Shown in pieces: positions 13,147-33,642 of a DNA stretch of 64,000 nucleotides (position 1 is the first letter of the stretch; each line of letters opens with the position of its first letter). The DNA is taken from positions 62,001 to 126,000 of the forward strand of contig NZ_OCMS01000005.1 in the NCBI RefSeq assembly GCF_900215325.1, read 5' to 3'. The stretch comes from Fibrobacter sp. UWB16. Lineage in GTDB: Bacteria > Fibrobacterota > Fibrobacteria > Fibrobacterales > Fibrobacteraceae. The notes beneath the pieces are model-generated. The model had not been told where the DNA came from. It did not search any database and saw only the letters and a list, made by a program, of their open reading frames with translations. The position numbers and the translations under genes are program-made.

Positions 13147-13162
13147 TAAATAGGGTAAAGTT

Positions 13163-15798: not shown

Positions 15799-18700
15799 TT
15801 ACCACCAGTTGAAATGGCAGTTCGATGCTGATGCGTTCAGAACCACTGATACCGTGGCGCCCTCCTTGCAGTTATTTAGGTCGATAGAGCCTGATGCACT
15901 CCAGTTTCCTGATAAGTGGTTTGATCCAATGTCGACCGTAAATGAGGATGTTCCTCCATTGTCACAGGCAAATTGACAACCACTAGGATTGCTTAATCCT
16001 GATTTTATTTCAACTGTATTTGTTCCGTTATTCAATTCGAATTTGCTGTCTTTACTTGATACTACGGTTACTGTTTCGCTGCCTCCAGAGCCTCCGCTGC
16101 CTCCAGAGCCTCCGCTGCCACCGGAACCATCGCAGGGGTTAGAACCGGATGTTTGCAGTTCAACCCAAATGCCGTTGCCGTGGAAATAATATCCACCATC
16201 AGCTTTAGTGATGTTTTTTGAGTTTAGGAAGTTTGCACAATTAGTTGAATTGTCCCAACAACCATTATTAGATGGCTCAACATCTTCATGCCATCCGTTG
16301 ATAGTCCATGCGTCGCCTTTGTTGACATTAATTCTTGTTGCAGATGTAAAGAACACACAACCTGTGAAACTACCATTTGAAACATTTCCCGTTGTAACAT
16401 TGCTTTCGCAGCCTGCTCCACAGTATTGTGCGCAATTACAGGTTGCTCCTTCAACGAATGACACACTGCAATACTTTGTTTCTTGACCAACAGAGTTCTT
16501 TAACGTAACCATGTAAATTGCCGTGTCATTTTTTGATTTGCTTTTATTTGTAACTGCTTGCAATGTGCAATTTGAATTTGAACAGCTACTGTGATATGTT
16601 CCATCGGCGCCAGTTCCTGCAATTAAATAATCACAGTCAGAATCATCGCATCCTGTAATTCCTGTGAGCCTAATCTTAACGTTGTTATCGCTATTTACGG
16701 TTGCCTTTATATTGTCTGCGCAACTAAATACAGGCTTGGTCTTTGTCACTTCTAATTGTGTAGAGCAGGATGTGCTTGCGTTATCACAAGTGCAATTGAG
16801 CGAAAGTGTTTTATTTCCTTCACTGCTTGCTGTTTTTTCAATATCGGTATCAGGCTGTGGATTGTATGGAGGAACTTGTTTTTCTCCATCAATTTTAAAC
16901 TCGCAACTCCAGCAGCTGTTTATTGCAGAAGCTTTGGTTGCTCTGAATGTGTAAGTTTGGTCCTTGTTTACTGTCGTCGGGTTCACAGAGCATGAAAGTA
17001 TTGATTCTATAGTCACGTTCCCTGTGCACAAAGTATGTGCACCCCTTGTCACGGAGTAGCTGTAAGTCCCTGGAGTTGTAGGAGCGTTTCTTGTGTTGTT
17101 CCTACAATTATTTTGATTACAGTCTATCGTTTTGCTATCACCGTTTAATGTCCATATGTACTGAGTAATTCCATTGACTCCTGACACGTTCATCGAAATC
17201 ACTTGTCCTTCGTACAAGTTTCCTGATATGTGGCAAGCGCCTGATTCTTCGTTCACTGTAACAGGAGCATCGCAAATCTTTTCGTTATTGTAGTAAAGGC
17301 TGTAAGTGTAGTCTCCGGCGGCAAGCTTTCCCAAATCCTTAATATTCGTTAAGCCAGACCAGTTGCTCAATGTTGCTGTGCCTACTTGTGAATCGCCTCT
17401 TTTCAGCGTAACTGTATATTGCTTATCAACACTTTCGTTGTTTCGAGCAAGGAAATACACGTTGTCCGAAACGGATACCGGATCATAGGTGAAGTCGGTC
17501 GGGCTTGTTGAAATTCCGCACGTTACTATTGGGGGAAGGTCTTCTGCGTTTCTTTGAACTTTGAAACTTGCGCTGCAATCGTCAAAAAGTGCAGGGTTTG
17601 CGGTGCTCTTCACTGTGTAAGTGTGTTCACAACCTTCGGTCGTATTGCAAGATTCGTTTTGGTTTGCGGAATGGCGAGCGGCAGTCTTTTCCGTTCCTGT
17701 TGCAAACGGAGTGTATCCGTTGTCCAAATAAATCTCGTAGCCGCAGCCGTTGCCTGGGCATCCGCTGAAGTTGACGTTAAATGTCGGGAATCTTGCTCCG
17801 CTTGCTACAGCGCTAACGACCGAGCAATCAACGCCGATGAGTCCAATAGGGTCCGGAGAGACCGAGCATTGCTTTGAGAATGTTTGGCCGGATGTTCCTG
17901 TGATTGTTGCGTTAAAGACGTACGATTTCCCCTGATGACTGTAAACGGTTGGATCAGGAATGCTGAGTGTTGCCATGTCGCCATTCCATACAATACCATC
18001 GTTACCTGTGGCATCTTTAGTTTGATTAATGAGGGTAGAGCCGTCGACAGTTGCCGTAATCTGTTGTTTTGAAATTAGGCTCTTGTCCTTGTTTGTCACC
18101 TGTGTTGTCACGTTCCAATTGTCACCATCGTATTCCGCTTTACAGTAGGTTATGCCGATGGCTTTGGCGCAAGTGCTTGTAATCGATGTTACCGTAACAC
18201 TTGTAGAACCGTGATTTTTCAAGACAATCTGTTTTACGTTTTCAGGGTCGAAACCGTTTGAACCTGTAGCAAATTCTTGCATGATGTTGAACGATCCTGT
18301 TGTTCCGCTCATGCTGACAGAATGGCTTTCGTGATCGTATTCGCCCCAGTTATCGCTTTCGCTGACCAACCAGATTTCCACTTCGTTGTTGTCGGTGTTT
18401 TCAAGCGTTACGTGGAGCGTTGCCGCTCTAAGGTTTTGCTTGTTCTCGAAAACGATGGTTTCTTCAAGGCTTCCGATGCTTTTTGAACCACTGAAAAGGT
18501 CTTGGTGCGCTAAGCACTCCGTAAATTCTCCAGTCCAGAAAGCACCGCAATGAGCGCGTTCCTTGTCGGATGTGACCCCCCAGGCCATGGCGGTTTCATC
18601 GACGTTTGTGCAGTTACCGAGCCATGCTTTTGCTGTTTTGTATTCGGTTCCTGCTTCGGTGTAGCCGTGAGCGCCTATTCCACTCTTGTCGAACTTGTAA

Positions 18701-21700
18701 CCGTCATAGCAGGATTCGCCAGAGCAAGTTGTGCTGGCGGCGTTATTGTCATTGCCGTTGTAGTAATAATAGAGCGGTGTACAACCCTTGGAATCGAACC
18801 ATCCAGAATGGCCAACCCAAGGTTTAACGAGCGTATCTATTTTGATGACTCCATCTGTTGCTACTGCTGCAAACGAGCATTTGACGGTGGGGTAGGTATC
18901 ATAGCATTCAGAATTGTAAGTGGCGCTCTTCCAGCCAATGCCGTAAATCTTGAAGTTCGGGTCGCCGAGGCTAAAACCGACGTATTCATGGGCGGCATCG
19001 GCTAGCGGATTGTTGAACTCCGAAAGCTTGAATGAACATTCATATTCTGTCGAGGAATCGCCATAGAAGTCGCCGATATTTGCGCGCACCTCGATGGTCC
19101 CTGAATTTGTAATGGTTATAGTCGCCATGACCATCTTTGACGTGGACACATACGCCTTGTATCCATTGCTATTGGTCAATGTGGATGTCAAACTTGTCGT
19201 GCCTTTCCAGAGCTGAGCTTCGAGAGCGCCACTGCTGTTTTCGTACAGGTTCAACATGAAGTAGTCATTTCCGTAAGTGTTGGCACGGAGCAAGAATCCG
19301 GAATTTTTGATATTGGCAGAAGTGTTGTCATAGCTACTTGTTACACGTGGTACGTTGATTAAGGCTTTGAGCGTGCCTAAGATACCGGCGTTTACCGTGC
19401 TAAGGACCATGACCGGATTCCTAGCGGATTGTTTCTTCTTCTTGACTGCTGATTTGTCGATGTGGATTTCACCACTGGAGCCGACGACAATCTGCGATAA
19501 ATAACCCGAAATCAAGTGCCATTTGGAGTTCGGATACAAGCTGTTCCCGTCAACGGCGCCTGTACATGTAGAATAGATGTCGTTGTCGCTGCATTTGTCA
19601 ATGCAGTATTGCACATCGTCTCCGCATTCTACGCTATTGCGCTTGAACTCGTCAAAGAAACAGTGCTTGTCGTTTTCGCCAAAGTATGCAATCAATTCGG
19701 TGTTGTCATCTGAAAGCGTAAACGCATCGAATTCCTTACTCGTGTTTGTTCCGTCGGTTGTTGGACAACTTCCGCCGCTACATTTCCAATAACTGAACTC
19801 GTTGGCGTCATCATTGTCTTCAAGGGCGGCTTTCACACTTTCGCCTTTGAAAATCGAGAATGTACATGTCTTTGTTGAAGTTTCGTCATTGTTTCTAGCG
19901 TCTTCGTAGCGGCACTGTTCGTTTCGGCTACCGTAATTGCTATCGATATACAAGTTTATTATAGGACTTTTGCTAGACCCCACATTGCCTTTGAAGCCTA
20001 CGGTGAACGTTCTTTTTTTGGCCTTGGCGCTTGCTCGCAAGGTGTAGTTCTTGTTTGCCTGTACGGCGTTTGCCGCAATCGAGTTGTTTGTTTGTGGAAT
20101 AATCGTTTCGCAGTCGTTGCTGCCGGTGGCTGCGAGGGTTACGCTTTGTGTGTTGCCGACGGTAATCACCCAAGTGCTATTGTCCACCAAGTTGATGAAT
20201 GATGTTCCGGAGGGTTCTACCCACACTCCAGAAACATCACAGTCAGGCCAGTAAGTTTCGTAATTAGAGGGGCAGTTGCCAGAATGGTTGTCGCAATATT
20301 CCTTGATGTCTGTTGATGTCGCTTCTTCGCGGTTCAACTGCGCACTTGAAGCGATGTAGAGCTCTGTTGAGGAGGGCGAGCCAGGAATGTAGCCTTCACC
20401 AGGGAGCAACTGGAACAGTAGAGTTCCTTTCACGGCATTGGATGTTTTTATGGTGGCTATCGTCGGTGTGGCGGCCGAAGAGTTGGCGGCTAGTTTAAGA
20501 TTGCATGACATCCCGTTGCGCGTGACGTTTTCGCCCAGAGAAACATAGGACCATGCTTCATTTTCGACGTCAGGGCAATAGAAGTTCACGGTAAGTTCTG
20601 CCGCATGTGCAGGGACGACGAGCTTGACTTCTTTTAAGTCATCGGCGTCCATTTCTTCGGATTCTTTTTCGAATGTGATTGTTGTAGTTCCACGGGTGTC
20701 TTTTCCGACATGGACCCAGAAAGGAATGCTGGGGTAACCGTTTGCGGTCGCGGTGCATGTGTAGAGACCTCTGCTGAGAGCTGTTCCCAAATAGAGGTTC
20801 CCTGTTGTAGATAGTGCTCCTGGCCCGCTACAAGATACGTTTACGTCTGATTTTCTCAAGGCCGTACCGTTGCCGTTGAGCGTTTGAATGTTGTAATAGT
20901 CGCTCAGCTGTCCGTAGGGATCGTTCGGCAGGTAAATGATACGCGGAAGAACGATGAATGATGGAGAAAGCTCTGTTATGTTGGTGCTACTTGCTTGTGG
21001 AGGAGTCTCGGAACTTTTGTTCTGGGTTTCAAGTCTTACGCCCAATTGCGGAGCCATTGAAATATAATAGCTATCGAATAGTTTTTCTGTCGATTCTGAG
21101 GAAGACGATGAGGATCCTGAAGTTCCCGTTGCTGCGCCTCCGCATGAACTTGCGCCTACAGAAGCGTTGCAGATGACGGCATTAGCCGACAAGTCGTTCA
21201 TCATATCTTCATTGAACACTAAGGAACGTGCTTTGAAATCGCCGACCTTCGCGCAGTTGTCTGCGGTTGCATAAACCGAGCCGCTGAAAGTAGAATTGTT
21301 AAACAGTAGCCCGCCAATATCTTTTTTGGTGTAGATGAAGTAATTGTATATGCCATTGTCTTCTGCTGGTAAAAGCGTGGAGCTTGCTCCTTCTGCTAGA
21401 TAGAGGAGTACATAGGAATCGGCCGTGGTCGGGGGCAATTTTTGCATTCCTAAAGCGTCTGTCACGACAATGATAAACTTGCCCTTTAAGGGAGTTTTAG
21501 GATCTTTAATTTCGCCACGATTTACAATTTTAACGACTTGATAACCATTGTAAAGGTTGTTTTTGTATTTGTTTTGATTCTCGGTATTTCTTTTGTAGCA
21601 ATTGTTGAGGTAGCGGCTCATGTTGTCGCCCCAGGTTTTTACGGTGTCGCAGTCTTTGTTTGCGTACGATATAAACTGATTGTAGGCGGTGACGAGAATG

Positions 21701-23379
21701 TCATCGACTTTGTAGCTAGCCCCGTCGCAGCCTTCTTTCTTTTTCCAGAGCTTGTTACAATAGGTTTTGACGGATTCGGCGCATTCAAAAGGTTGGCTTG
21801 CCGGCATTTCGCTCGATACGGTTCCCTGGGATTTAAACCACGGGGTAACTCGGCATTCGGGGCGCCACTTATCTGGAGTCGCTTTGCAGTATGGCGAGCC
21901 TGTCGGTGTGCCGTTCTGATAATTCAAGAAGTTATTTTTTTCTGCAGTGTAGCCATACGATCCCCAATAACCGATTTGAGGCGTGTAAAAAACTTTGTTC
22001 CCGGCATAATAGTTGGCGTAATACGCTTGTGCGCCCCAGCCCCAGCCGCCAGCGTTTGAGACGATGTAGTCGACATCTTGACCTTTACCGTTGTAGTAGT
22101 AAAGGTAGTAGGCGTCGTTTTTGTTCTTCATGTGGGGCTTTAAATCTGGGTATGGGCGGGTTGTCTTGTTGTCCCATTTGGCTTGAGAACCGTAAGTATT
22201 GGATCCTTTATAATAGGTGTTCTTTTCGATAAACGTTCTGTTGTTTCTGAGTGTCACGTAATCTGCAATGGGGTGGGCACTTTTGATGTAAACTTTGGAA
22301 TCTTTTTTGTTTCCTAGAATAATCTTGTTGTATTCGCCTTCGTTGTCTTCACCGTTTGTAATCCATATGGGGTATGTCGATTCGGCCCAAAGATTTCCAC
22401 CGACGAGGAAATCTCGTGCGGGATTTTTTTCGCTAATGAGAACCTGGCCGTGTTCCCCAAGGCACATGTTCCCTGCGACACGGGAATCGTGTGCTGAAAA
22501 GTTTGTATACCATGTGCCGTTGACTGTCAGATTCTTCTGGAATTTTTGATCGCCTGTGGTTGGTGCTTCAAGGTTACCTTCAATGTAAACGTTACCTGTG
22601 ACGTTTGCGTTATAGAGGCCTGCTGCTTCAGATGTTGTCGGGAATGTGAAGTGGGCTGCGTTGCCGCCGACGTAGAAGTCGTTACCAAGGACGCCGTTGT
22701 TTGCAAGGAGATTGCCTCCGATGCATGCCGTAGTGCCTGCACCGATTGAACTTCCTGATACATTGGCGTTTCCTGTAATAATGAGATCGTTTTCCGTATA
22801 TGCAGGGTTGCTGCCGTTGTCGAGATTGCCGTTAACAAGCAAAGAGTATGCCTTCATATGGCCTTGTGTTTGAGTTGTTCCACCAAAGTAATTGTACCTG
22901 AACGGAATGGCGCTGTATTCTTCTTCTTCAAAAAGCCTGACTCGATACAAACCGTCTACGTTAAAGATGGCCGCTTCATTCCATTGCGTGTTGTCCCCTG
23001 ATTCGCCAGATGAAAGAATTTTTAATTTGAACGTGGTCTTTTCAGTATTCACGCCCGTAAGCCATACATGGTAATTTTGCCCAGCGCGTTGCAACGGGCG
23101 TAACCTTGCGTCAAGGTTTATAGGCTTATTTCCGCCATCAATGAAAGCCTTTATCAATGCGCCGACATCGTTCGCGTGGAAGGTCATCCACATTCGGGCG
23201 CTTTCGATGCCTGCTTGCGAACTTTGATAAGCCTCTTGTTGCCGCATTCTACTGACGCTAGAACGCCCTTGGCTTGTGAGCAACTTATAGGTGGCCGTTG
23301 CTGCAATTGTTGCAATAAGCATAAACATCAGCACGGTGATAAGAGATACACCGGATTTCATATTCTTTTGCTTAAACAT
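15799..23379 (-). CDS. Giant PilX-like pseudopilin with multidomain adhesin-like ectodomain (copy A)
   Basis: 2,526 residues. The N-terminus MFKQKNMKSGVSLITVLM is a prepilin-like leader and hydrophobic helix of PilX/GspK character: cleavage is predicted after Gly10 and position +5 is Thr, not Glu. Rough architecture: helix 1-60; beta-helix-like repeats rich in VGGN/VNGNL/IGGNL at about 150-340; a block with LPRIIYLPNDPYG and LSDYYN near 810; an InlB-repeat-like segment ending DKHCFFDEF near 1238; a lectin-like block to about 1480; LVKPWVGHSG near 1510; a further beta-sandwich with GFDPENV near 1700; and tandem Cys-paired Ig-like repeats at about 1848-2300 (SGCPGNGCGY, TGCDDSDCDY). A Gly-Gly-Ser linker and a final Cys-containing module end NCHFNWW. 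Ordinary PilX is about 200 residues. GGAGG overlapping the stop of the PilW-like gene supports the start. Homologous along its length to copy B. A pilus-tip adhesin is inferred; ligand unknown. Confidence 0.82.
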   Translation of the reverse strand: MFKQKNMKSGVSLITVLMFMLIATIAATATYKLLTSQGRSSVSRMRQQEAYQSSQAGIESARMWMTFHANDVGALIKAFIDGGNKPINLDARLRPLQRAGQNYHVWLTGVNTEKTTFKLKILSSGESGDNTQWNEAAIFNVDGLYRVRLFEEEEYSAIPFRYNYFGGTTQTQGHMKAYSLLVNGNLDNGSNPAYTENDLIITGNANVSGSSIGAGTTACIGGNLLANNGVLGNDFYVGGNAAHFTFPTTSEAAGLYNANVTGNVYIEGNLEAPTTGDQKFQKNLTVNGTWYTNFSAHDSRVAGNMCLGEHGQVLISEKNPARDFLVGGNLWAESTYPIWITNGEDNEGEYNKIILGNKKDSKVYIKSAHPIADYVTLRNNRTFIEKNTYYKGSNTYGSQAKWDNKTTRPYPDLKPHMKNKNDAYYLYYYNGKGQDVDYIVSNAGGWGWGAQAYYANYYAGNKVFYTPQIGYWGSYGYTAEKNNFLNYQNGTPTGSPYCKATPDKWRPECRVTPWFKSQGTVSSEMPASQPFECAESVKTYCNKLWKKKEGCDGASYKVDDILVTAYNQFISYANKDCDTVKTWGDNMSRYLNNCYKRNTENQNKYKNNLYNGYQVVKIVNRGEIKDPKTPLKGKFIIVVTDALGMQKLPPTTADSYVLLYLAEGASSTLLPAEDNGIYNYFIYTKKDIGGLLFNNSTFSGSVYATADNCAKVGDFKARSLVFNEDMMNDLSANAVICNASVGASSCGGAATGTSGSSSSSSESTEKLFDSYYISMAPQLGVRLETQNKSSETPPQASSTNITELSPSFIVLPRIIYLPNDPYGQLSDYYNIQTLNGNGTALRKSDVNVSCSGPGALSTTGNLYLGTALSRGLYTCTATANGYPSIPFWVHVGKDTRGTTTITFEKESEEMDADDLKEVKLVVPAHAAELTVNFYCPDVENEAWSYVSLGENVTRNGMSCNLKLAANSSAATPTIATIKTSNAVKGTLLFQLLPGEGYIPGSPSSTELYIASSAQLNREEATSTDIKEYCDNHSGNCPSNYETYWPDCDVSGVWVEPSGTSFINLVDNSTWVITVGNTQSVTLAATGSNDCETIIPQTNNSIAANAVQANKNYTLRASAKAKKRTFTVGFKGNVGSSKSPIINLYIDSNYGSRNEQCRYEDARNNDETSTKTCTFSIFKGESVKAALEDNDDANEFSYWKCSGGSCPTTDGTNTSKEFDAFTLSDDNTELIAYFGENDKHCFFDEFKRNSVECGDDVQYCIDKCSDNDIYSTCTGAVDGNSLYPNSKWHLISGYLSQIVVGSSGEIHIDKSAVKKKKQSARNPVMVLSTVNAGILGTLKALINVPRVTSSYDNTSANIKNSGFLLRANTYGNDYFMLNLYENSSGALEAQLWKGTTSLTSTLTNSNGYKAYVSTSKMVMATITITNSGTIEVRANIGDFYGDSSTEYECSFKLSEFNNPLADAAHEYVGFSLGDPNFKIYGIGWKSATYNSECYDTYPTVKCSFAAVATDGVIKIDTLVKPWVGHSGWFDSKGCTPLYYYYNGNDNNAASTTCSGESCYDGYKFDKSGIGAHGYTEAGTEYKTAKAWLGNCTNVDETAMAWGVTSDKERAHCGAFWTGEFTECLAHQDLFSGSKSIGSLEETIVFENKQNLRAATLHVTLENTDNNEVEIWLVSESDNWGEYDHESHSVSMSGTTGSFNIMQEFATGSNGFDPENVKQIVLKNHGSTSVTVTSITSTCAKAIGITYCKAEYDGDNWNVTTQVTNKDKSLISKQQITATVDGSTLINQTKDATGNDGIVWNGDMATLSIPDPTVYSHQGKSYVFNATITGTSGQTFSKQCSVSPDPIGLIGVDCSVVSAVASGARFPTFNVNFSGCPGNGCGYEIYLDNGYTPFATGTEKTAARHSANQNESCNTTEGCEHTYTVKSTANPALFDDCSASFKVQRNAEDLPPIVTCGISTSPTDFTYDPVSVSDNVYFLARNNESVDKQYTVTLKRGDSQVGTATLSNWSGLTNIKDLGKLAAGDYTYSLYYNNEKICDAPVTVNEESGACHISGNLYEGQVISMNVSGVNGITQYIWTLNGDSKTIDCNQNNCRNNTRNAPTTPGTYSYSVTRGAHTLCTGNVTIESILSCSVNPTTVNKDQTYTFRATKASAINSCWSCEFKIDGEKQVPPYNPQPDTDIEKTASSEGNKTLSLNCTCDNASTSCSTQLEVTKTKPVFSCADNIKATVNSDNNVKIRLTGITGCDDSDCDYLIAGTGADGTYHSSCSNSNCTLQAVTNKSKSKNDTAIYMVTLKNSVGQETKYCSVSFVEGATCNCAQYCGAGCESNVTTGNVSNGSFTGCVFFTSATRINVNKGDAWTINGWHEDVEPSNNGCWDNSTNCANFLNSKNITKADGGYYFHGNGIWVELQTSGSNPCDGSGGSGGSGGSGGSGGSETVTVVSSKDSKFELNNGTNTVEIKSGLSNPSGCQFACDNGGTSSFTVDIGSNHLSGNWSASGSIDLNNCKEGATVSVVLNASASNCHFNWW
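16077..16125 (-). repeat. Gly-Gly-Ser-coding short tandem repeat
   Basis: About two and a half copies of an 18-base unit (plus strand TGCCTCCAGAGCCTCCGC) encoding the GGSGGSGGS linker before the last domain of giant pseudopilin A. Such a repeat could change copy number without breaking frame. Confidence 0.7.
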
Positions 23380-23387
23380 AAACCCTC

Positions 23388-24809
23388 CTAATCGCGTGGA
23401 CCGTTGCTCGGTGCAGGAACGACCATTTCAACATGTCCGGACTCTCCTCTGTTTTTGATATCCAGACTCAGCAGAAATGCCTTTACGTTCTGCTTGTCGC
23501 TTTTGTTGGCTTCGAAATCGTAATTTTCGAATTTGTAGTTTGCACTGGGTATCTTTAGGACTTTCAATTTCGAGATGGATATTTTCCCTTGTGAAACGAG
23601 AGGAGAATAGCAAGCGAACGTGAATGCGAGACATGCTTTTGTAATCTTAATGGGGACTGAAAAACGCATGGTGCGTTCTCCGCTTCCTTCGCTCTTGACG
23701 CCCAAAGGCGGGAAAAATGCGAAATCTCCAAATTTTATAGCGGGGTCGCCATACGTAATGGGGTTGCCTGTCTCGAGACTCCTCAAACCGACGGCCATGT
23801 GGTCTTCGCCAGGGACAAATAACTTGCTTTTATCTGCATTTTCGTCTGTGGGCAGAATTTCGAATGAAATTTCATACTCGTTGTCCGGTTCAAATGTGAG
23901 GTTGCTGCCTTCACTGGCGCAAAGGGTCTGCCACGAAAAATCCGGGTACGTCTCGTTGCGGACGGCGATAACTTCGTTGATCTTACGGGCGCCTTCGCTT
24001 TTTATGGTTTGCATGCTTTGGTCATAGTTTTGGAAGAACCCGGATATGGTCTGCGTATTTCCGCCTTTGTGCGTTTCTCCTGCTTCATTGGTCACAATAG
24101 GCATTTCGCGGTCTCCGTCGTTTCTACCGACAAACCTGAATTCGGATTCACCAACGCCAGGGAACAGCTGGACGTTGTCCCCTACAACGCCGGGTTTTCC
24201 CGGTGTGACTTTGAACTTGCTTACATCTGATGCCATTTCGATATTGTTGGGTTCAGATGTTGCTCCGTCGGTACAAGGGTCGTCTTCTGGGAGATTCGAT
24301 TTTTTTTCGAGGATTCTGCAGTTGCGCCAAAGCGATCCGTCACGGACAAACCAGGCGATTTGTTCGACGGCGGAGTAATGGCCGGATTCGTCGTAACGTA
24401 AACGGCGGATGGTAAGGCTGTCGAACCCGTTTTTGGTCACTACAGAAAAAGATGACGAATCTTTATTTTCGCTGTTTGGGTCCATGTAAACGTTCGTGTA
24501 GATGTTGCTGAACTTGTTGCCGTATTCAGCCCCAGATTCCGAGGCCCCTGCTTCCATGGCGGTCTTTGCCCCTGTCTGTGCGACATCGGCTTTGAATATG
24601 GCGGCCACTTTCTCTGCGGTTTCTGAAGCTTGCAACATGCTCTGCGTGCGCATGCGCATCTTGGTGCTGTCGCTGAAAGCCTGGCCCGCGATAAGGACTA
24701 TGCCTCCAAGAAGGGCTATGTAGACCATCAGCTCGATGAGGGTAAAACCGGATGCTCGTTGCATCTGTACATTCGTACCTTTATTTGTCAAACGACTAAA
24801 AAACTCCAT
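23388..24809 (-). CDS. PilW-like prepilin with beta-sandwich-like insert (copy A)
   Basis: 473 residues. The type IV prepilin signal is RASG then FTLIELMVYIALLGG: cleavage after Gly21, Phe +1, Glu +5. The pilin-like part (to about 220) has CRILEKKSNLPEDDPC. A PilW-type FRFVGRNDG strand leads into an unusual long domain (about 260-450) with YEISFEI, GEDHMAVGLRS and AFTFACYSP, resembling a carbohydrate-binding-like beta-sandwich by its strand pattern only. It ends in VPAPSNGPRD. The start at 24809 has GAGGG upstream; an ATG at 24764 is a shorter alternative and a TTG at 24848 is less likely. The giant PilX-like gene follows after 8 bases. Paralogue of the gene at 25123. Confidence 0.85.
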   Translation of the reverse strand: MEFFSRLTNKGTNVQMQRASGFTLIELMVYIALLGGIVLIAGQAFSDSTKMRMRTQSMLQASETAEKVAAIFKADVAQTGAKTAMEAGASESGAEYGNKFSNIYTNVYMDPNSENKDSSSFSVVTKNGFDSLTIRRLRYDESGHYSAVEQIAWFVRDGSLWRNCRILEKKSNLPEDDPCTDGATSEPNNIEMASDVSKFKVTPGKPGVVGDNVQLFPGVGESEFRFVGRNDGDREMPIVTNEAGETHKGGNTQTISGFFQNYDQSMQTIKSEGARKINEVIAVRNETYPDFSWQTLCASEGSNLTFEPDNEYEISFEILPTDENADKSKLFVPGEDHMAVGLRSLETGNPITYGDPAIKFGDFAFFPPLGVKSEGSGERTMRFSVPIKITKACLAFTFACYSPLVSQGKISISKLKVLKIPSANYKFENYDFEANKSDKQNVKAFLLSLDIKNRGESGHVEMVVPAPSNGPRD

Positions 24810-25074
24810 TCTCGACCCTCGCGACACCTTTTTTAACAATTGCAACAATATTGTGCAATTATGATGATATTTTCTAATCTAAAAGATAAGTTTTGTGTAT
24901 GCAAAAGTGTTAAAAAATTCTTTTTTATTGTCTGATTTTGCTAAAAATTTGACGAAAATCAACGTTTTTTCGTGTCTTGACTTGATTCTTTTAAAGAAGT
25001 GTTGATTTTATGTTTTTTTACATATATCCCGCAGGCGTAAACTTTTAGCAATTTTTTGAATTTATCTTTTCACA

Positions 25075-25080
25075 TATAAT
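25075..25080 (+). promoter_or_regulatory. Candidate -10 element of the right-hand pilin operon
   Basis: Perfect TATAAT 42 bases before the ATG at 25123. A consensus -35 is not apparent. Confidence 0.5.
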
Positions 25081-25093
25081 ATAAAGAGTTGGA

Positions 25094-25115
25094 TTATTCC
25101 ACTTTCGTGGGATAA
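25094..25115 (+). other. 5'-UTR hairpin before the right-hand PilW-like gene
   Basis: TTATTCCAC - TTTC - GTGGGATAA, nine pairs including one G-U. It ends 7 bases before the start codon, so it lies at or next to the ribosome-binding site. No T run follows, so it is not a terminator. Translational control is speculative. Confidence 0.5.
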
Positions 25116-25122
25116 AGTTGGA

Positions 25123-26466
25123 ATGTGTATGATATTTAACTATGTGGGTGATTTGTGCCCGAAATATAGCCGTAAGGCAGGCTTTACCTTGGTGGAATTG
25201 CTTGTCTATATGGCAATCCTTGGCGTTGTTGTCCTTGTTGCAGGGCAAGCTATTACCGATAGCACTAAAATTCGCGTTCGCACACAAAATATGCTGGCCT
25301 CAAGCCAGAATGCCGAGAACGTGGCAAGTTTGTTAAAAGACGATATCGCACAAATGGGTGCTAAGGAATACGAAACTGAAAAATATTCAGGCATTTTCAA
25401 TGTTGTCCAAAATGCATTTATGGACCCAAATAATGCAGATGCTTCTTTAATAGACAAGTCTTCGTATTTTTTGCAAAAGGGAACGGGCGAATTTGACAGT
25501 TTGTACTTTAGAAAAATCCGCTATGACGATGATGGTAAATATGTAGGGCTCGAGGCTGTCTCGTGGTACGTGCACGATGGCGTGCTTTATCGCCGCTGCA
25601 AACGCCTTGAAAGTGCTGCGGGTGCAATTGACGATGCAACGTGCCCTGCGGATGGCAATACAGAAGTGGCGATTGCAAATGACATGTCGCGCTTCAAGGT
25701 TGTGCCGGCGAAGCCCAAATTGCTAGAAGCAAGTACGGGCAAGGTGATGTTCCCGCCGGCTGGGGATGTGTCGGAATTTCGCTTGATTTCCCGTTATGAC
25801 GGCACAAAAATGCTTCGCTTGAATTTGACTCCCGAACTTGGGGGCAATCCGGTCAAGCTTTCTGGATTTGTTACAAATTACGATGTCGATGCAGAAGCTT
25901 ATTCGACCGTGAATAGAATCAACCAGCTTTATGCCGCTCAGGCAAATAGCGGTTCTGGCAGCTGGTCGGAACTGTGTTCCGAAATGACTTTTACGCCAGG
26001 GGCGGAGTACGAGATATCCTTTAAGTTGCCGATTCTCTCGTCTACGGATGCTTCCCAAACGATTGTCCCGGGGCGTGACCATTTGGCGGTTGGATTGCGT
26101 ACAAAATCAGGTGAAAAGATAGAACGCTTTGACGATTTTATGTTCGCTCCTCCAAATGATGAAACATCGGCGAATATTACTCGAAATTTCCGCTTTTCTG
26201 TAAATCAGGAAGTGAAGGCGTGTCTTGCATTTACGTTTGTGTTCTTCTCTCCGCTTGCAGAACAGGGAACACTGAATATTTCCAATTTGACGGTGAAAAA
26301 AGTTCAGGATATCAATTACGAATTCGATGCGGACTATACTCCCGAAATTGCAGACAAGAAAAATGTCCGTGCGTTCTATGTGGACTTGAGAATAAACAAG
26401 CACGGCGAACAGGGTGGATCGAGTTACGTTTTTGCAACGCCGAGCAATGGCTCCGCTGTAGAATAA
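25123..26466 (+). CDS. PilW-like prepilin with beta-sandwich-like insert (copy B)
   Basis: 447 residues and paralogous to the gene at 23388-24809. The prepilin signal is SRKAG then FTLVELLVYMAILGV: cleavage after Gly20, Glu at +5. Shared segments include GQAITDSTKIRVRTQ, the FRLISRYDG strand, TPGAEYEISFKLP, GRDHLAVGLRT, KACLAFTFVFFSPL and the end ATPSNGSAVE. The domain after about residue 260 is not part of ordinary PilW or GspJ and by strand pattern resembles a CBM-like beta-sandwich. ATG at 25123 or 25129 could be used; GGA precedes both. The giant PilX-like gene follows after 15 bases. Minor pilins of this class normally prime pilus assembly at the tip. Confidence 0.85.
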   Translation: MCMIFNYVGDLCPKYSRKAGFTLVELLVYMAILGVVVLVAGQAITDSTKIRVRTQNMLASSQNAENVASLLKDDIAQMGAKEYETEKYSGIFNVVQNAFMDPNNADASLIDKSSYFLQKGTGEFDSLYFRKIRYDDDGKYVGLEAVSWYVHDGVLYRRCKRLESAAGAIDDATCPADGNTEVAIANDMSRFKVVPAKPKLLEASTGKVMFPPAGDVSEFRLISRYDGTKMLRLNLTPELGGNPVKLSGFVTNYDVDAEAYSTVNRINQLYAAQANSGSGSWSELCSEMTFTPGAEYEISFKLPILSSTDASQTIVPGRDHLAVGLRTKSGEKIERFDDFMFAPPNDETSANITRNFRFSVNQEVKACLAFTFVFFSPLAEQGTLNISNLTVKKVQDINYEFDADYTPEIADKKNVRAFYVDLRINKHGEQGGSSYVFATPSNGSAVE

Positions 26467-26481
26467 TTATAGGGGTGTGAT

Positions 26482-29400
26482 ATGATGTGTGGTAAGAAGG
26501 GTGTATCCCTTATAACGGTTTTGATGTTTATGCTCGTTGCGACAATTGCTGCAACGGCTACGTTCAAATGGCTTAATTCCGAAGGTCATTCAAGTGCGGC
26601 CCGCATGATGCGTAATGAAGCGCGCCAGGCGGCGGTGGCGGGGATTACTGCCGCTCGTTCGTGGATGACGTATCACGGAAACGAGACGGGTGCCATTATT
26701 CGCCAGTTCAAGGGCAATGGCAATAAGCCTATCCACTTGAATAATGTGCTCGGCAATAATATCGAAAGTGCAAATCAAAATTTTGACGTGTGGCTTGTCG
26801 GTGCCGAAACGGAAAGCTCGCCGTATGTGGTGAAAATCCTTTCGACAGGTGAATCGAGGAATGGCTCCAAACATAGTGAAGTCGCGATTATGAAAATTTC
26901 GGGGCTTTACCAAGTCAAGGTTCCCGAGAAAAAAGTGAGTATTTCGTTTGACCGAGCGTTCTTTGGCAAGACCACGGGTATTACGGGCGATGACTCGCTG
27001 GAATCGGCTATTATCAATGGCGATTTTGGACATCAGAACAACGTTCCTGTAATTTCGAAACCGCTCCTGGTGACGGGTAATTTCTCGTTTCAGGGAACAA
27101 CGAACATGGGAGGGGACCTGTATGTCGGTGGAAACTTTGAAAATAGGGGAGGGCTTTTTTTCGGAAATCTTGAAATGGACCCGCATTCCAACGATTACGC
27201 CAATTGCAAAACGCCTGATGCCGATACGCTTGTCGTCTATATCGGTGGCTCTATAACCACGTGCGAAGGTAACGTCATTGCAGTATGTGGCGACCTTTAT
27301 GTAGGTGGAAGTGTGCCGGTGAATTGTGATATAAAGGTCGGGGGAAACTTTACCGTCAATGGGCACATGGAACGCGGTACTGGCGATATTTCAAAAGGTA
27401 TTGGTGTAAAAAAGAACATGGTCTTTACGGATAATGCCAGTTGGACAAAGAACGAACTCAACTATTTTAACAGTACTGGTGGCGGAACAGTATCAACGTT
27501 TAAGGTTACAAATAATTTGGTTCTTCCGCCGACGATGGATGGTCGAAAAGATGAAAATGGTGGCTATGCGATTGACTTGACGGGTAAAGTCATGAGCTAT
27601 ACGACTGCCAATACTATTTTGAGGGAGCAGGGGAATAACAACAACCCGAAGAAATATGGTGTCTTTGTTGAAGGTACGACCGCTGAACAGGCAAAAGCGA
27701 GGGACCGTGGGAACAGACGCTATTTCTCGTTTAACGCGGCCAAAGGTATAGAAAATCGCAAGGTGTCTAGGTGGAGTGAATCAGACCCGCTATTGAGAAA
27801 TATTGGCGATAATTATTGGAACAAGTTGAGAAAGATGTATGAATATCAAGGGCTTATTGGCTCTGATGGCGAAGTCCCTGTGCCGATTTTGTTGAATAAT
27901 GAAGATACGTGGACGACAAAAACGCAAAATGCTTTTTGTCATTTGGGCACAACGTTTAACTTGAATAATGAAAATATCGAAAAGATAAACAAGTGCTATA
28001 AAGATGCGGGTGAAAATGAACTATATAATGGTTTCTTGATTTTGGAATGGCATTCCTCCGAAAAGGTGGACCCGACGATTGCTTTAGACGGAAAGTTTGT
28101 TTTTTACGCTCCTCAAAAATTGGCTAATGGCCATGAATTGATTTTGCCCTCGACAACTGATAATTCCGTGGTGTTGCTGTATTTGAAAGAAGGTTCAGGA
28201 ATGCTTCGCGGTATGGAAGGTTTTAAACAGAACTTCTTTATTTATTCTAGAGGTGACATTGAAGAAATGAAGGAGTTGAAGCTCGAGGGCTGTGTCATTA
28301 TGGACAACGGCTCTACTCTGCGAAAATACCAAGGCAAGAACCACTTGAAGTATAAGGCGGAAGTTGTTCAGGCTGTGCAGGCTGCAGGGCTCATTATCGG
28401 TAACGAAGAATTTGAAAGGCTTGCGAATAAGTCCAGTGGCGCTACTTCGACATCGGGAAGTTCTGATGTGAGCGATACGGTGTATGTCTCTGTGGCATCT
28501 CAGTTGAAGATTACGATGGAATCTGAATATAAAAACAATGAATCGTACGGGAATGGTGATGAAAACGTAAAACCGTCTATTCTTATTTTGCCGCGAATCA
28601 TCTATTTGCCCAAAGATGCTAAAGGTCGCCTTTCGGACTATTACAATGTGGTGAACTTGAATGGCGCCAATGAACGCAAGAATCCGAACAATGTCACGTG
28701 TAGCCCGATGGGACTCCCGGCGGTCGAAAAATTCAAGCTGTACGCTTCGGTTCTCCCGCAAGATGTCTATAGTTGCCAATACACAAGTAACAACTATGAA
28801 AAAATGGGATTTTATGTTGTCGTTAGCGGCTCTTCTGGTGATGAACCTGTTGTGAAGTTTGAAAAGAAATCGATTGAAATTACTAAGGGTGGTACAGTCC
28901 ATGTAAATCTGAAGGCTTCGAAAGCGAAGCCTGCGACTGTTGATGTTTTCCAATCGAAGGCTCCTGATGAATGGGTGGTTACTGGTGGAACGTTAAAGAA
29001 AGAGAATACCGATGGTTCCAAGGTTTACTCAATGCCCTTCAATGGCGATAAACTGGCTTTTGATGTAACGATGAAAGAAACGGCGTCGGGAACGGGCTCT
29101 GTTTATTTCCAGTTGGTTGATCCTTGTGAAAACTGCGTCATCAATGCGGATTCCAATTCTACGACTGTGACGGCTGAAGGTTCGTTTACGCTTATCCGTA
29201 AAGATGTCCGTGAATATTGCGAACTGGCTGAGCATAAGGACGATGAATCTTGCAAGCAGGGCGGAGACTTGTACAAGAAAATTCAGACTCCGGAATGCGG
29301 ATCTTTGACAAAAGAAGGTACGCAGTGGGTCACCGCTGATGGCGTTGGCTGTAAGATGGATGAGCTCAATAACAAGTGGTTCTGCAGTATTTATATCACG

Positions 29401-32400
29401 ACTCCTGTAGTCTTGAAAAAAGCGGATAACTTTAATGACAACTTCTGCGAAGTCGTGATTCCGCCGAATACGAGCATTTCTTCTGCCAAGAGCGAAACGG
29501 AATACCTCTATGCGTCTGTACAGCGCCGTACGTATAATTTGCACATTGAATTTAAAGGTGCCGAGGAATCTAGCGATGTGATTGAAGTGTATAACAAGGC
29601 GAAGGATTCGGATGAATATGTCAAGAAGTACACTTGTAAAAATGGCGAAATTTGCGATTACCCGATTTATGCCGGTTATTATTATCAGCTAAGGGCGATT
29701 GCGAAGGGCTCTGACCGCTTCTCTCGTTTCACTTCGGAACCGAGCGTTGCTGCCGCCCAGGATTCCTTGCTGACGATTCTTGCATCGAGTGATTATTCTG
29801 TTGTGGCGTATTTCAATGACCGTGATGAACACTGCTTCTACGAAGATTTTGCGCCGGATGCAAACAACAAGGGCTTTGTTGCTTTCTGTAGTGAAAGTGA
29901 GGATTTCCCGCGCTGCATTGATGTGTGCTATACCAACCCTCAGCCGGGTATGTCTTGCAAAATTTCGGAATCCATGCACTGGGTGGGGGCTGATGCGGCT
30001 TCGAATCCGGACTGGGTGATGGTTTACGATAACAGAAATGCCACTTCGAATTGCCAATGGGATTATTCCTCTTGCCATTGCTCTTCGGATGACAATGCGT
30101 GCCGCCTGCAATGCAGAAAGCGCGTATGCACGACAACTAAATCGGGCGAACGCTTGGTCCCTTCGATTTCGAACAATTACATCACCGCCAATGCAGCAGC
30201 TGAAACGTCTTCGGATGTGCCGAACGGTTCTCAGAGCGTGATTCTCAATACTAAAGATAACGGTAGCAACGGTACGCTTACCTCTATTTTCTCGACGGAG
30301 ATTATTGATGTGAATACGACTGTGAAAAACATGGCTAACTCGGGATTTATCTTTAGGGCGAATGAGGACGCTTCGGAATACTATTCCTTGAGCGTTTACG
30401 GAAAGCATGCGGGCGGTGCATACTCGCCGTATGTCTATGTGATGCTTTGCTATGTGAATGGGCAGACGGCTTCTGATGATGCCTGTGTTGAAAAATTCCT
30501 CTCCACGACGGATTGGGATGTCTCGGAATCGGGTGGCTTTACCAACCTCTCAAAGATTGGCCTTGTGATGAATATTCAGGGCAATATCGTTTCGGTGAAT
30601 TTGCAGTTGAACGGCAATTCAGCAAATGCTTCTTCATCGGGATACTCGTTTGATTTGAATGAATTGTTTGGATCGAACCTTCTGTTGAATGATATCCACC
30701 ATGGTCATGCCGGTTTCAAGCTTTCGAATAAGGACTTTAAGCTTTACGATATTTCGTGGTCGAGTACGGCTTATGGCGATAATGCTTGCTGGGACCGCCC
30801 GAGACTTGTCTGCTCGTTTAAGACAAATTACCTCGGTGGAATTGTTCCGCAAGATGAAAATGTGAAACCTTGGGTCGGCTTCAGTTCATTTACGATGAAC
30901 AAGTACAAAAAATGCCACGTCAAGTATTATTACAATGGCTGTGACAACGCTGTCACCTCGATGCCGTCTCCGACAAACCCGCTTTATAACTGGGAAAAAC
31001 TGTATCAGCTCTATGCTTGTGCGGGCGGAGAACGACTCGGCATGTATTGGGATAAGGGCACCGAGGTGAACGATCCTTATTACCGCTTTAAAACCGAAGG
31101 CAAGCATGGCTATTATTTTGAAGACCCGGAATCGAGTTGGGGTGGCTTTGCCATGGATGCTAAGGTGGCGCTAGAGTGCCCGCCCGATGTCAAAGTGAAT
31201 GTCGCTTCTTCGTTGCTCCAGACGCAATCTTGCGGCGAGTTCTACGTTGGCGATATTTTGATGTGCTCGAAAAACTTTGATTTCCTGAATAGCGAAGAAC
31301 CTGTATTCTGCACGGATAGCTGTAGTTTTGAGGTCTCTGGCAACGAGGGCGTGAATGTCCGTAAATCCAAACTTTTGGTGGGGCTTAACAACCCCAATAG
31401 CCATAACTTGCGCATCTCCTTTACGGATAAGAATAAAATCCAGTCTTCGTTCTATACAACCGCTATGGATGGAACTTTGTCTATAGATGTGAACTCCATT
31501 TCTAACGAGGATGGCTTTGACCCGCAGCATGTCATGAGTGTAAATGTAAAGGTGGTTGACGGAAGTTCTATCGAAATCAACCAGCTGAAGAGCAGTTGCC
31601 CGAATTCGCTGAGCATTGGATCTTGCAAGGTGCAGTACGACAATAAGCATTGGGAAATTACTGCGGATGTGAAAAATGCAGATCGTTGCTCCGTTGAAAA
31701 GCCTCTCGTATCTGACGCGGAAGCTGTCGGGCCGGCCGAAGGTTGCCCCAAGACGTTCCGTTTCAAGGAAGAAGGGCTGTATTCTAAAGAAGATGTGCTG
31801 AGTTATGAATTTACGGTCAAGGCTTACAAAGGTTCTGGCGCCGATGAAGAAATGGAAACGCTGAAGTGCGATCCGTACAAAATCATACCGATTGAAGTGG
31901 GTTGCGATATTGCCGAAAGTAAGAAAACGGTCAAGCAGGGCGCTGGTGTTCCGTCTTTGAATCTTTCATTTACCAATTGTCCCGAAGATGGCTGTGATTA
32001 CACTATCAGTTTTGAAGGGAGTGTCATTGCTCGCGGGAATACGCAAAAAGAGGGCGACAAGACGGAAACGTACACCTTTACCGATTTGAATACGCCGTTA
32101 AATATGTTGAATGCAAAAGAGTATTCGTTTACCGTTGTTGCGGGTGGTAAAGAAAACCGTGATTGCAAATTTACGGTAGAAGAAACGGCTAGCAAGGCGA
32201 AAGCCTCATGTGATTTTAATCCGGATACCAAGATGTTTACAGCCAAGGTGGATATTCTCCAGGGGCTTACATGGTCGGGTGAAATTGATTTGCTGGATTA
32301 TAACGGTAACCGCTATAGGACGGTCCAGTCGTTTGTTGATGAAACGTCCTCTGAAATCAGTGTGGATTTGTCTGCGGTTCCGTTCTCGAATGGTCAAAAT

Positions 32401-33642
32401 ACAATCTCGCTTACTTTGAATGGTGGCGCTACAGGGAACGGTAGATGCCTTGTGACTTATATGCAATCTACGCCGCAAAGTGAACTTGAATTGACCTGCC
32501 CCTCGATTGTCTCGGTGAATGGCTATGATAAGACTTTTGAAATGACGCCGACGGTTACGGGGTGCGAAAATGGTGGCTGCTCGTGGAGTGTCTCTGGCGG
32601 GGCTTCTGTTTCTCCGGCAAGTAATTATACATCGGGAACCCTTACGGTAACGGAATCTTATGTGAGCAGCAGTAAGGAATACACGTTTACCTTAAGCCAT
32701 GAAGGTCTTGATAGCAAGACTTGCGATGTGACTGTTGAAAGGGCGTCTCAGTTTGAACTGGATTGTGAAATTGCCAAGCAGACGGATGTCGAGCCTGGAG
32801 AAACGATTACGATTCAGCCGCATTCCGTGACAGGGTGCAATTCGGATTGCTCGTACAGTGTCGAAATGCAGAATTCGACATCTGGCGCGGATTACATCAG
32901 CGTTGTGAATGGTACGGGATCCAATTATGATGGTGGCGCTATTTCGTTTAAGGGCGCTAGCTCTGGCGGCACAAAGCAATATCGTTTGACGGTGACGGAT
33001 GCCATGAATTCCTCGAAGTCATGCTTGTTCGAAGTCGGCTATGCAAATTCTGGATGCCGCTCGGTAGTGCGTAAAATGCCTTTCAGCAACAGTAATATTA
33101 GCATAAGTGATAGATTTGTTGCTGGTTGCAATGAAATTAAAACGGTTAAGCAATGTAGCAAGGCTCAAATCCAGTCTCAGGCATGTTCTTGCTCGGATGG
33201 CTTGTCGCATACGTTTACGATTAACGGAAAGACGCTTGATTGTGGCGTGTACTTCGATGATGTCATTCCGGCACGTTCTACTGTAACTTTGGATGTTCCT
33301 GAAAACTGCACGATTAATGGCAATATCTACCTTTCGGAATGTTATTATGACCCGAATTATGTAGGTGTTGGTACAAAGCTAACTGGGAACTTCCAAAGCT
33401 TTGAACCAGGTTCAAATAGTGTGTATGTGGCTGCTTTTGATAACGGAAATCGGTTGAACTGCTCTGTTTCTCAAACGGCATCATATGCAAGAACCGTGGC
33501 ATCGGTAAATGGTTGTAATATCACGATTAATGGAAACAATGATCGAAGCTATAGCAACTGTGAGCTTGAAGGCAATGCTGATTACACGCTCATTGTTAAG
33601 GATGATGCTCCGAGCGATTTGAAATGTGGTATTAGTTGGTAA
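26482..33642 (+). CDS. Giant PilX-like pseudopilin with multidomain adhesin-like ectodomain (copy B)
   Basis: 2,386 residues. The N-terminus KKGVSLITVLMFMLVATIAA matches copy A almost exactly and also lacks Glu at +5. Domain order parallels copy A: beta-helix-like repeats (VTGNFSFQG, LYVGGNFEN, IKVGGNFTVNG) at about 190-300; LPRIIYLPKDAKG and LSDYYN near 700; DEHCFYEDF near 1115 opening a lectin-like block; VKPWVGFSSF near 1455; CGEFYVGDI near 1582; and GFDPQHV. Tandem Cys-paired Ig-like repeats run from about 1807 to 2190 (TNCPEDGCDY, TGCENGGCSW, TGCNSDCSY). A distinct C-terminus with more cysteines ends KCGISW; it lacks the Gly-Ser linker of copy A. AGGGG precedes the start. The likely site is the tip of a surface pilus. 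Confidence 0.82.
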   Translation: MMCGKKGVSLITVLMFMLVATIAATATFKWLNSEGHSSAARMMRNEARQAAVAGITAARSWMTYHGNETGAIIRQFKGNGNKPIHLNNVLGNNIESANQNFDVWLVGAETESSPYVVKILSTGESRNGSKHSEVAIMKISGLYQVKVPEKKVSISFDRAFFGKTTGITGDDSLESAIINGDFGHQNNVPVISKPLLVTGNFSFQGTTNMGGDLYVGGNFENRGGLFFGNLEMDPHSNDYANCKTPDADTLVVYIGGSITTCEGNVIAVCGDLYVGGSVPVNCDIKVGGNFTVNGHMERGTGDISKGIGVKKNMVFTDNASWTKNELNYFNSTGGGTVSTFKVTNNLVLPPTMDGRKDENGGYAIDLTGKVMSYTTANTILREQGNNNNPKKYGVFVEGTTAEQAKARDRGNRRYFSFNAAKGIENRKVSRWSESDPLLRNIGDNYWNKLRKMYEYQGLIGSDGEVPVPILLNNEDTWTTKTQNAFCHLGTTFNLNNENIEKINKCYKDAGENELYNGFLILEWHSSEKVDPTIALDGKFVFYAPQKLANGHELILPSTTDNSVVLLYLKEGSGMLRGMEGFKQNFFIYSRGDIEEMKELKLEGCVIMDNGSTLRKYQGKNHLKYKAEVVQAVQAAGLIIGNEEFERLANKSSGATSTSGSSDVSDTVYVSVASQLKITMESEYKNNESYGNGDENVKPSILILPRIIYLPKDAKGRLSDYYNVVNLNGANERKNPNNVTCSPMGLPAVEKFKLYASVLPQDVYSCQYTSNNYEKMGFYVVVSGSSGDEPVVKFEKKSIEITKGGTVHVNLKASKAKPATVDVFQSKAPDEWVVTGGTLKKENTDGSKVYSMPFNGDKLAFDVTMKETASGTGSVYFQLVDPCENCVINADSNSTTVTAEGSFTLIRKDVREYCELAEHKDDESCKQGGDLYKKIQTPECGSLTKEGTQWVTADGVGCKMDELNNKWFCSIYITTPVVLKKADNFNDNFCEVVIPPNTSISSAKSETEYLYASVQRRTYNLHIEFKGAEESSDVIEVYNKAKDSDEYVKKYTCKNGEICDYPIYAGYYYQLRAIAKGSDRFSRFTSEPSVAAAQDSLLTILASSDYSVVAYFNDRDEHCFYEDFAPDANNKGFVAFCSESEDFPRCIDVCYTNPQPGMSCKISESMHWVGADAASNPDWVMVYDNRNATSNCQWDYSSCHCSSDDNACRLQCRKRVCTTTKSGERLVPSISNNYITANAAAETSSDVPNGSQSVILNTKDNGSNGTLTSIFSTEIIDVNTTVKNMANSGFIFRANEDASEYYSLSVYGKHAGGAYSPYVYVMLCYVNGQTASDDACVEKFLSTTDWDVSESGGFTNLSKIGLVMNIQGNIVSVNLQLNGNSANASSSGYSFDLNELFGSNLLLNDIHHGHAGFKLSNKDFKLYDISWSSTAYGDNACWDRPRLVCSFKTNYLGGIVPQDENVKPWVGFSSFTMNKYKKCHVKYYYNGCDNAVTSMPSPTNPLYNWEKLYQLYACAGGERLGMYWDKGTEVNDPYYRFKTEGKHGYYFEDPESSWGGFAMDAKVALECPPDVKVNVASSLLQTQSCGEFYVGDILMCSKNFDFLNSEEPVFCTDSCSFEVSGNEGVNVRKSKLLVGLNNPNSHNLRISFTDKNKIQSSFYTTAMDGTLSIDVNSISNEDGFDPQHVMSVNVKVVDGSSIEINQLKSSCPNSLSIGSCKVQYDNKHWEITADVKNADRCSVEKPLVSDAEAVGPAEGCPKTFRFKEEGLYSKEDVLSYEFTVKAYKGSGADEEMETLKCDPYKIIPIEVGCDIAESKKTVKQGAGVPSLNLSFTNCPEDGCDYTISFEGSVIARGNTQKEGDKTETYTFTDLNTPLNMLNAKEYSFTVVAGGKENRDCKFTVEETASKAKASCDFNPDTKMFTAKVDILQGLTWSGEIDLLDYNGNRYRTVQSFVDETSSEISVDLSAVPFSNGQNTISLTLNGGATGNGRCLVTYMQSTPQSELELTCPSIVSVNGYDKTFEMTPTVTGCENGGCSWSVSGGASVSPASNYTSGTLTVTESYVSSSKEYTFTLSHEGLDSKTCDVTVERASQFELDCEIAKQTDVEPGETITIQPHSVTGCNSDCSYSVEMQNSTSGADYISVVNGTGSNYDGGAISFKGASSGGTKQYRLTVTDAMNSSKSCLFEVGYANSGCRSVVRKMPFSNSNISISDRFVAGCNEIKTVKQCSKAQIQSQACSCSDGLSHTFTINGKTLDCGVYFDDVIPARSTVTLDVPENCTINGNIYLSECYYDPNYVGVGTKLTGNFQSFEPGSNSVYVAAFDNGNRLNCSVSQTASYARTVASVNGCNITINGNNDRSYSNCELEGNADYTLIVKDDAPSDLKCGISW

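Follow-up and report, generated by a model that had tools for sequence, protein, structure and literature searches.

What kind of system is encoded by two giant proteins that each follow a PilW-like prepilin, and what might they do at the cell surface? The question is raised by a 64,000-nucleotide stretch of the Fibrobacter sp. UWB16 genome (3.56 Mb, Fibrobacteraceae), referred to here as the window, in which two divergent gene pairs lie between pheS and gpmI (Table 1). The open reading frames and coordinates are as the initial annotation described them, with a 313-base spacer between the pairs and gaps of 8 and 15 bases between prepilin and giant. The spacer is presumed to be a promoter region; in a promoter pattern scan of it, promoter-like matches were not in excess over shuffles. 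Elsewhere in the window a gene for a Wza-like polysaccharide export protein is followed by one for a mannose-1-phosphate guanylyltransferase-like protein (12022-14539, + strand), which suggests an exopolysaccharide locus near the pilin genes, and an allophanate hydrolase-like amidase (39267-41021, - strand) and a urea carboxylase-like protein of 1,196 residues (48125-51712, + strand) perhaps represent a urea amidolyase system.

Table 1. Features of the prepilin-giant pairs, in window coordinates
Feature	Position	Strand	Basis and remarks
Giant 1	15799..23379	-	ORF, 2526 aa, 77 Cys
Giant 1 pilin module, about residues 1-152	22924..23379	-	Similarity to giant 2, alignment
PilW/GspJ-like prepilin 1 (PilW 1)	23388..24809	-	473 aa from ATG; 486 aa from upstream TTG (24848)
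Spacer between divergent pairs	24810..25122	.	313 bases ATG to ATG, A+T-rich
PilW/GspJ-like prepilin 2 (PilW 2)	25123..26466	+	ORF, 447 aa
Giant 2	26482..33642	+	ORF, 2386 aa, 74 Cys
Giant 2 pilin module, residues 1-150 (predicted)	26482..26931	+	AlphaFold: helix 10-64 and four-strand sheet 100-149
Giant 2 tapirin-like beta-solenoid region, residues 154-654 (predicted)	26941..28443	+	AlphaFold, VIA-align
Giant 2 beta-sandwich domains (predicted)	28837..29826	+	Calx-beta/cohesin-like 786-905, pilin-backbone-like 906-1115; VIA-align Z 7-11
Giant 2 C-terminal all-beta part, residues 1225-2386 (predicted)	30154..33639	+	AlphaFold; Ig-like domain string, variable end

Comparison with related loci places the pairs in a larger gene set. 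Two small prepilin genes usually precede the PilW-giant pair in relatives, one resembling GspH/FimT (KAGFTLVEVLVV) and the other resembling GspI/PilV (KRGFGIVEVLVA). The full set in most Fibrobacteraceae is FimU/GspH-PilV/GspI-PilW/GspJ-giant PilX/GspK (H, I, J and K below), of which the window pairs are the J-K half. The two-gene system proposed in the initial annotation is ruled out, since H and I adjoin J in most relatives and are present once in the window genome. There the single H-I pair is intact (curated models: GspH 5.5e-7, GspI 3e-3) and lies as an orphan on contig C3 (G000:C3), with no J gene after it, while the J-K pair is duplicated on another contig. I and H are present in each of the 84 Fibrobacter genomes that carry J. 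Of the 122 J genes in these genomes, 69 follow H-I, 16 follow I alone and 36 have neither, and 25 orphan H-I pairs occur alongside them; two or three J genes are found in 29 genomes, 19 of which have a single H. Among relatives the pairs may be divergent, tandem or dispersed, and so divergence itself is not conserved. In one sister genus (L067, L069) the gene order is J-H-I-K and the giants are shorter (about 850-1,500 residues). At one locus (L040; 1528-2010, - strand) a PilA-like gene, whose product resembles a major pilin, adjoins the H-I-J-K set, the sole such place among the loci seen. H, I and J also weakly match the pseudopilin-like proteins D, B and C of the Verru_Chthon cassette (TIGR02596, TIGR02598, TIGR02599), although at about 17-21 bits against cut-offs of 51-257, and the giants show no match to further proteins of that cassette.

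The N-terminal signals indicate the position of each protein within the set. Pfam recognises the N_methyl prepilin motif in PilW 1 (4.3e-5) and PilW 2 (2.9e-8), that of PilW 1 reading G/FTLIEL with Glu5. The PilX/GspK-like start that had been read in the giants is borne out by PilX_N on giant 1 (6.6e-5; 23.3 bits, slightly below the curated cut-off of 25.5) and by a match of the GspK N-terminus to both giants at about 7e-3. Giant 2 is not listed in the PilX_N search; among 39 giant relatives the domain is found in 19 at E <= 0.01, with a best value of 1.2e-8. Against the GspK equivalog model the giants reach 16 bits, where the cut-off is 130. In profile searches against solved structures H and J match solved pilins only across the N-terminal helix, and I and the pilin module of the giants give no significant match. 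Among sequences with a readable motif, Glu5 is retained throughout in H (28/28), I (36/36) and J (49/49). It is present in none of 52 giants, which carry T, A or V instead. A missing Glu5 is characteristic of PilX and GspK (PMC7541494), and giants without this residue beside H, I and J proteins that have it are as expected for the topmost subunit. That the giants are minor pilins bearing a huge ectodomain and occupying the PilX/GspK slot, as the initial annotation had suggested, is well supported.

Giants are found only in Fibrobacteraceae. Of 168 genomes from the phylum, 95 contain relatives of giant 2, every one of them a member of this family, and relatives of PilW 2 occur in 98 of 111 Fibrobacteraceae genomes (53 of the 56 good ones). 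Scanning GTDB r220 for the pilin module gave 72 loci, all but two in Fibrobacter-type records; carriers include F. intestinalis ATCC 43854 as well as many rumen and horse-faeces genomes of F. succinogenes and Fibrobacter sp. The two exceptions (L118, L136) are Fibrobacter-type giants on contigs labelled Bacteroidales, which are probably mis-binned metagenome contigs. Every one of the 72 giants found through the pilin module has a PilW gene directly upstream, which answers the call for conserved pairing made in the initial annotation, and at 47 of these loci H and I are present too, in the order H-I-J-K. The 63 untruncated giants in this sample range from 747 to 3,197 residues, all but one exceeding 1,900. 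At one locus (L063; 4113-11013, + strand) the giant appears as two overlapping frames of 1,562 and 796 residues, which is a frameshift or assembly error. Starting instead from J, a giant adjoins PilW in 50 of 54 cases; of the four exceptions, three show the J-H-I-K order of that sister genus and the fourth is truncated where the stretch ends. The prepilin-giant pairing is not due to chance and is kept family-wide.

These counts bear on whether the giants act in a pilus at all. It is conceivable that they are membrane-anchored or shed surface proteins with a borrowed prepilin N-terminus, and their size and 74-77 cysteines would fit any surface protein. We consider this hardly credible, given the strict coupling to PilW, the fact that no Fibrobacter genome with J lacks H or I, and the correlated divergence of J and K, whose N-terminal distances give a Mantel r of 0.71 (0/999 permutations), a value to which shared genome ancestry contributes.

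The initial annotation had made its reading depend on pilus machinery elsewhere in the genome, and both a prepilin peptidase and core genes of the type IV pilus are indeed present, the complement comprising PilD, PilB with MshEN, PilT, PilC, PilM, PilO, secretins and PilA-like pilins. The PilM-PilO-secretin locus stands apart from another secretin cluster (G000:C1:674-691 kb), which has three prepilin-like genes of its own, one encoding a 328-residue GspK-like protein. This cluster (L096, G000:C1:674000-691000) also encodes, besides two small prepilins, a 421-residue protein without a family, and the 328-residue protein gives a weak FapA-type beta-solenoid match; it is possibly a minimal type II secretion system. 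That it has its own prepilins of ordinary size speaks against assigning the giants to it. A role for the giants in capping a type II secretion pseudopilus, and presenting or pushing out secreted enzymes, would accord with the GspH, GspI and GspK family matches and with type II secretion genes that are reportedly higher on cellulose in F. succinogenes (PMC4668043). Since these matches all fall far below equivalog cut-offs, and a separate PilM-PilO-secretin locus exists besides the cluster with its three prepilin-like genes, we regard such a role as very improbable. Assembly of the giants into a surface type IV pilus is the reading that we follow below.

We modelled giant 2 with AlphaFold in two halves, using 39 natural homologues (mean pLDDT 78 and 76). 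The prediction, which the initial annotation had suggested as a check, gives a pilin module followed by a long beta-solenoid from about residue 160 to about 430, with low confidence at residues about 320-440, then more strands to 650 and beta-sandwich domains beyond. When the model was compared by VIA-align with Foldseek's top 1000 chains, to which the comparison was confined, tapirins took ranks 1-3 as matches of the solenoid region (4wa0, Z 16.7; 6n2b, Z 16.6; 6n2c, Z 15.7), in alignments of 292-316 residues with rmsd 3.7-4.3 and 12-13% identity. The next match is a small Calx-beta domain (Z 10.7) that aligns to another part of giant 2. Tapirins are not listed in Foldseek's own top 50, and in sequence comparison of the giants no tapirin chain was matched at E <= 1 (profile) or 5 (single sequence). 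The tapirin likeness is one of predicted fold, which may reflect remote homology or convergence. For microcrystalline cellulose, tapirins have an affinity in the micromolar range (PMC7142884).

The remainder of the ectodomain is less distinctive. The second half of giant 2 gives only generic Ig-type chain matches, and a profile of the C-terminal part of the giants finds one S-layer Ig-type match (Sap, 4e-4). Profile and sequence searches of the giants against solved structures gave nothing convincing, and a Pfam search of the 39 giants for known carbohydrate-binding or adhesion domains produced single weak matches, with no carbohydrate-binding module recognised. A laminin-G-like reading of giant 2 residues about 1240-1430, for which there was only a loose PAPP-A match, is not claimed.

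Conservation follows the predicted domain plan. The two pairs had been described as paralogous along their whole lengths, which holds for the PilW proteins (41% identity over the full length) but not for the giants, which are paralogous only over residues 8-1923 of giant 1 and 5-1885 of giant 2, about three quarters of their length. Identity is 39% in the first 290 residues and 25% in 591-1923/502-1885, and over the final 500-600 residues the two are not significantly similar. By domain, identity between the two giants is 45-75% in the pilin module versus 13-27% in the solenoid region, a contrast that would fit a common assembly role with different surfaces. In an alignment of 39 giants the N-terminal 150 residues are likewise the most conserved part, and the solenoid loops and the C-terminal end are the least conserved, identity falling to 0.10-0.15 at the end.

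The solenoid matches also bear on what the ectodomain might be for. A tip minor pilin could use it for a task other than fibre binding, such as contact with other cells or a host, DNA uptake, or priming combined with extension of a stalk. ComZ, the Thermus competence pilin with a beta-solenoid, is itself among the matches (Z 9.8 over 352 residues, rmsd 18.4), and beta-solenoids and Ig strings are generic surface folds. The tapirins nevertheless score well above both ComZ and an ice-binding solenoid (Z 9.4), and the carriers found all belong to a fibre-degrading family, so that a non-fibre task appears unlikely. We think it probable that the giants are pilus-tip minor pilins that carry their own adhesin, likely for plant polysaccharide, and that their J-K tips are perhaps exchangeable. 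The earlier proposal of a minor pilin fused to an adhesin stands to the extent that the predicted ectodomain fold matches a cellulose adhesin. Its identification with PilY1 does not, as Pfam finds no PilY1 domain in the giants. Separate PilY1 genes were found in 0 of 168 genomes of the phylum, in a search to which no positive-control genome responded either; a giant whose own ectodomain serves as tip adhesin would leave no need for a separate PilY1.

In known pili, assembly is primed by the H-I-J-K minor pilins, which finish at the tip with K topmost, and variable domains of tip pilins give binding specificity (PMC7541494, PMC8179133, PMC12075869). By analogy, the giant would take the PilX/GspK place atop the priming complex, over PilW/GspJ and with FimU/GspH and PilV/GspI beneath. 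Its N-terminal helix would enter the pilus, and the 2,000-residue ectodomain would be carried outward as the tip, where the tapirin-like beta-solenoid, followed by Ig-like and other beta domains, would act as an adhesin, its ligand most likely being cellulose or another plant cell-wall polysaccharide. As no modular pilin of such size was found in the literature, export of the giant through the secretin has to be assumed. The two J-K pairs would use one H-I pair, such that alternative tips could be mounted on a common base; the switching of targets between two versions, as raised in the initial annotation, is possible.

Several known systems share parts of this design. The FimU-PilV-PilW-PilX and PilY1 complexes of P. 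aeruginosa and M. xanthus have the same four pilin types in the order known from type IVa pili, with a K position lacking Glu5; each M. xanthus cluster also brings PilY1, and several clusters can coexist, three in this species (PMC7541494). In those complexes the adhesin is the separate PilY1, whereas in Fibrobacteraceae the PilX-type subunit itself mostly has 1,900-3,200 residues. An ordinary PilX has about 200. In modular pilins (PilB and PilC of Streptococcus sanguinis, CofB and ComZ) a pilin module likewise bears an added functional module that the pilus carries, and ComZ shares a beta-solenoid with the predicted giant (PMC8179133). In the AlphaFold prediction giant 2 shows the defining features of this class, an N-terminal pilin fold and then a distinct non-pilin module. 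The extreme multi-domain example named in a survey has 860 residues (PMC8179133), whereas the giants have about 2,400, occupy the PilX/GspK slot and carry a predicted tapirin-like solenoid. Modular pilins are a recognised class, which the giants extend with solid comparative support and with a function that we infer. The C-terminal domains of Caldicellulosiruptor tapirins provide the top three solved matches of the predicted solenoid, and both kinds of protein occur in cellulolytic bacteria; tapirin genes also adjoin a type IV pilus locus. Tapirins, in contrast, are discrete proteins of ordinary size without detected sequence similarity to the giants, and to our knowledge they are not PilX-type pilins. 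Finally, the single Kil pilus of M. xanthus draws on several paralogous tip sets whose domains vary (PMC12075869), although Kil is a Tad pilus with KilLMN trimers, and in Fibrobacter only the J-K half is multiplied, with H-I often single. More tentatively, Fibrobacteraceae may have fused tip pilin and adhesin in a single giant polypeptide, a subunit of PilX type whose tapirin-like solenoid would bind cellulose and which would replace a separate PilX and PilY1, and several J-K pairs may share one H-I base to provide alternative fibre-binding tips on one retractable pilus.

Pilins have been linked to cellulose adhesion in Fibrobacter (PMC3079729, PMC4704652, PMC4668043), and published accounts disagree on whether a complete pilus gene set is lacking or present (PMC3079729, PMC4704652). 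In the open-access Fibrobacter literature searched we found no description of minor pilins or of the giants, and no named tip adhesin. Fibrobacter is a major non-cellulosomal degrader of fibre in the rumen, and how it grips cellulose is a long-open question. The giants are a conserved and nearly universal Fibrobacter candidate for this hold on fibre, a subunit roughly tenfold larger than usual that has a clear domain plan and, in the predicted structure, a fold link to a cellulose adhesin of an unrelated bacterium. With the giants, modular pilins reach a greater size than previously known, and the locus provides a case of J-K tip duplication on what would be a shared base.
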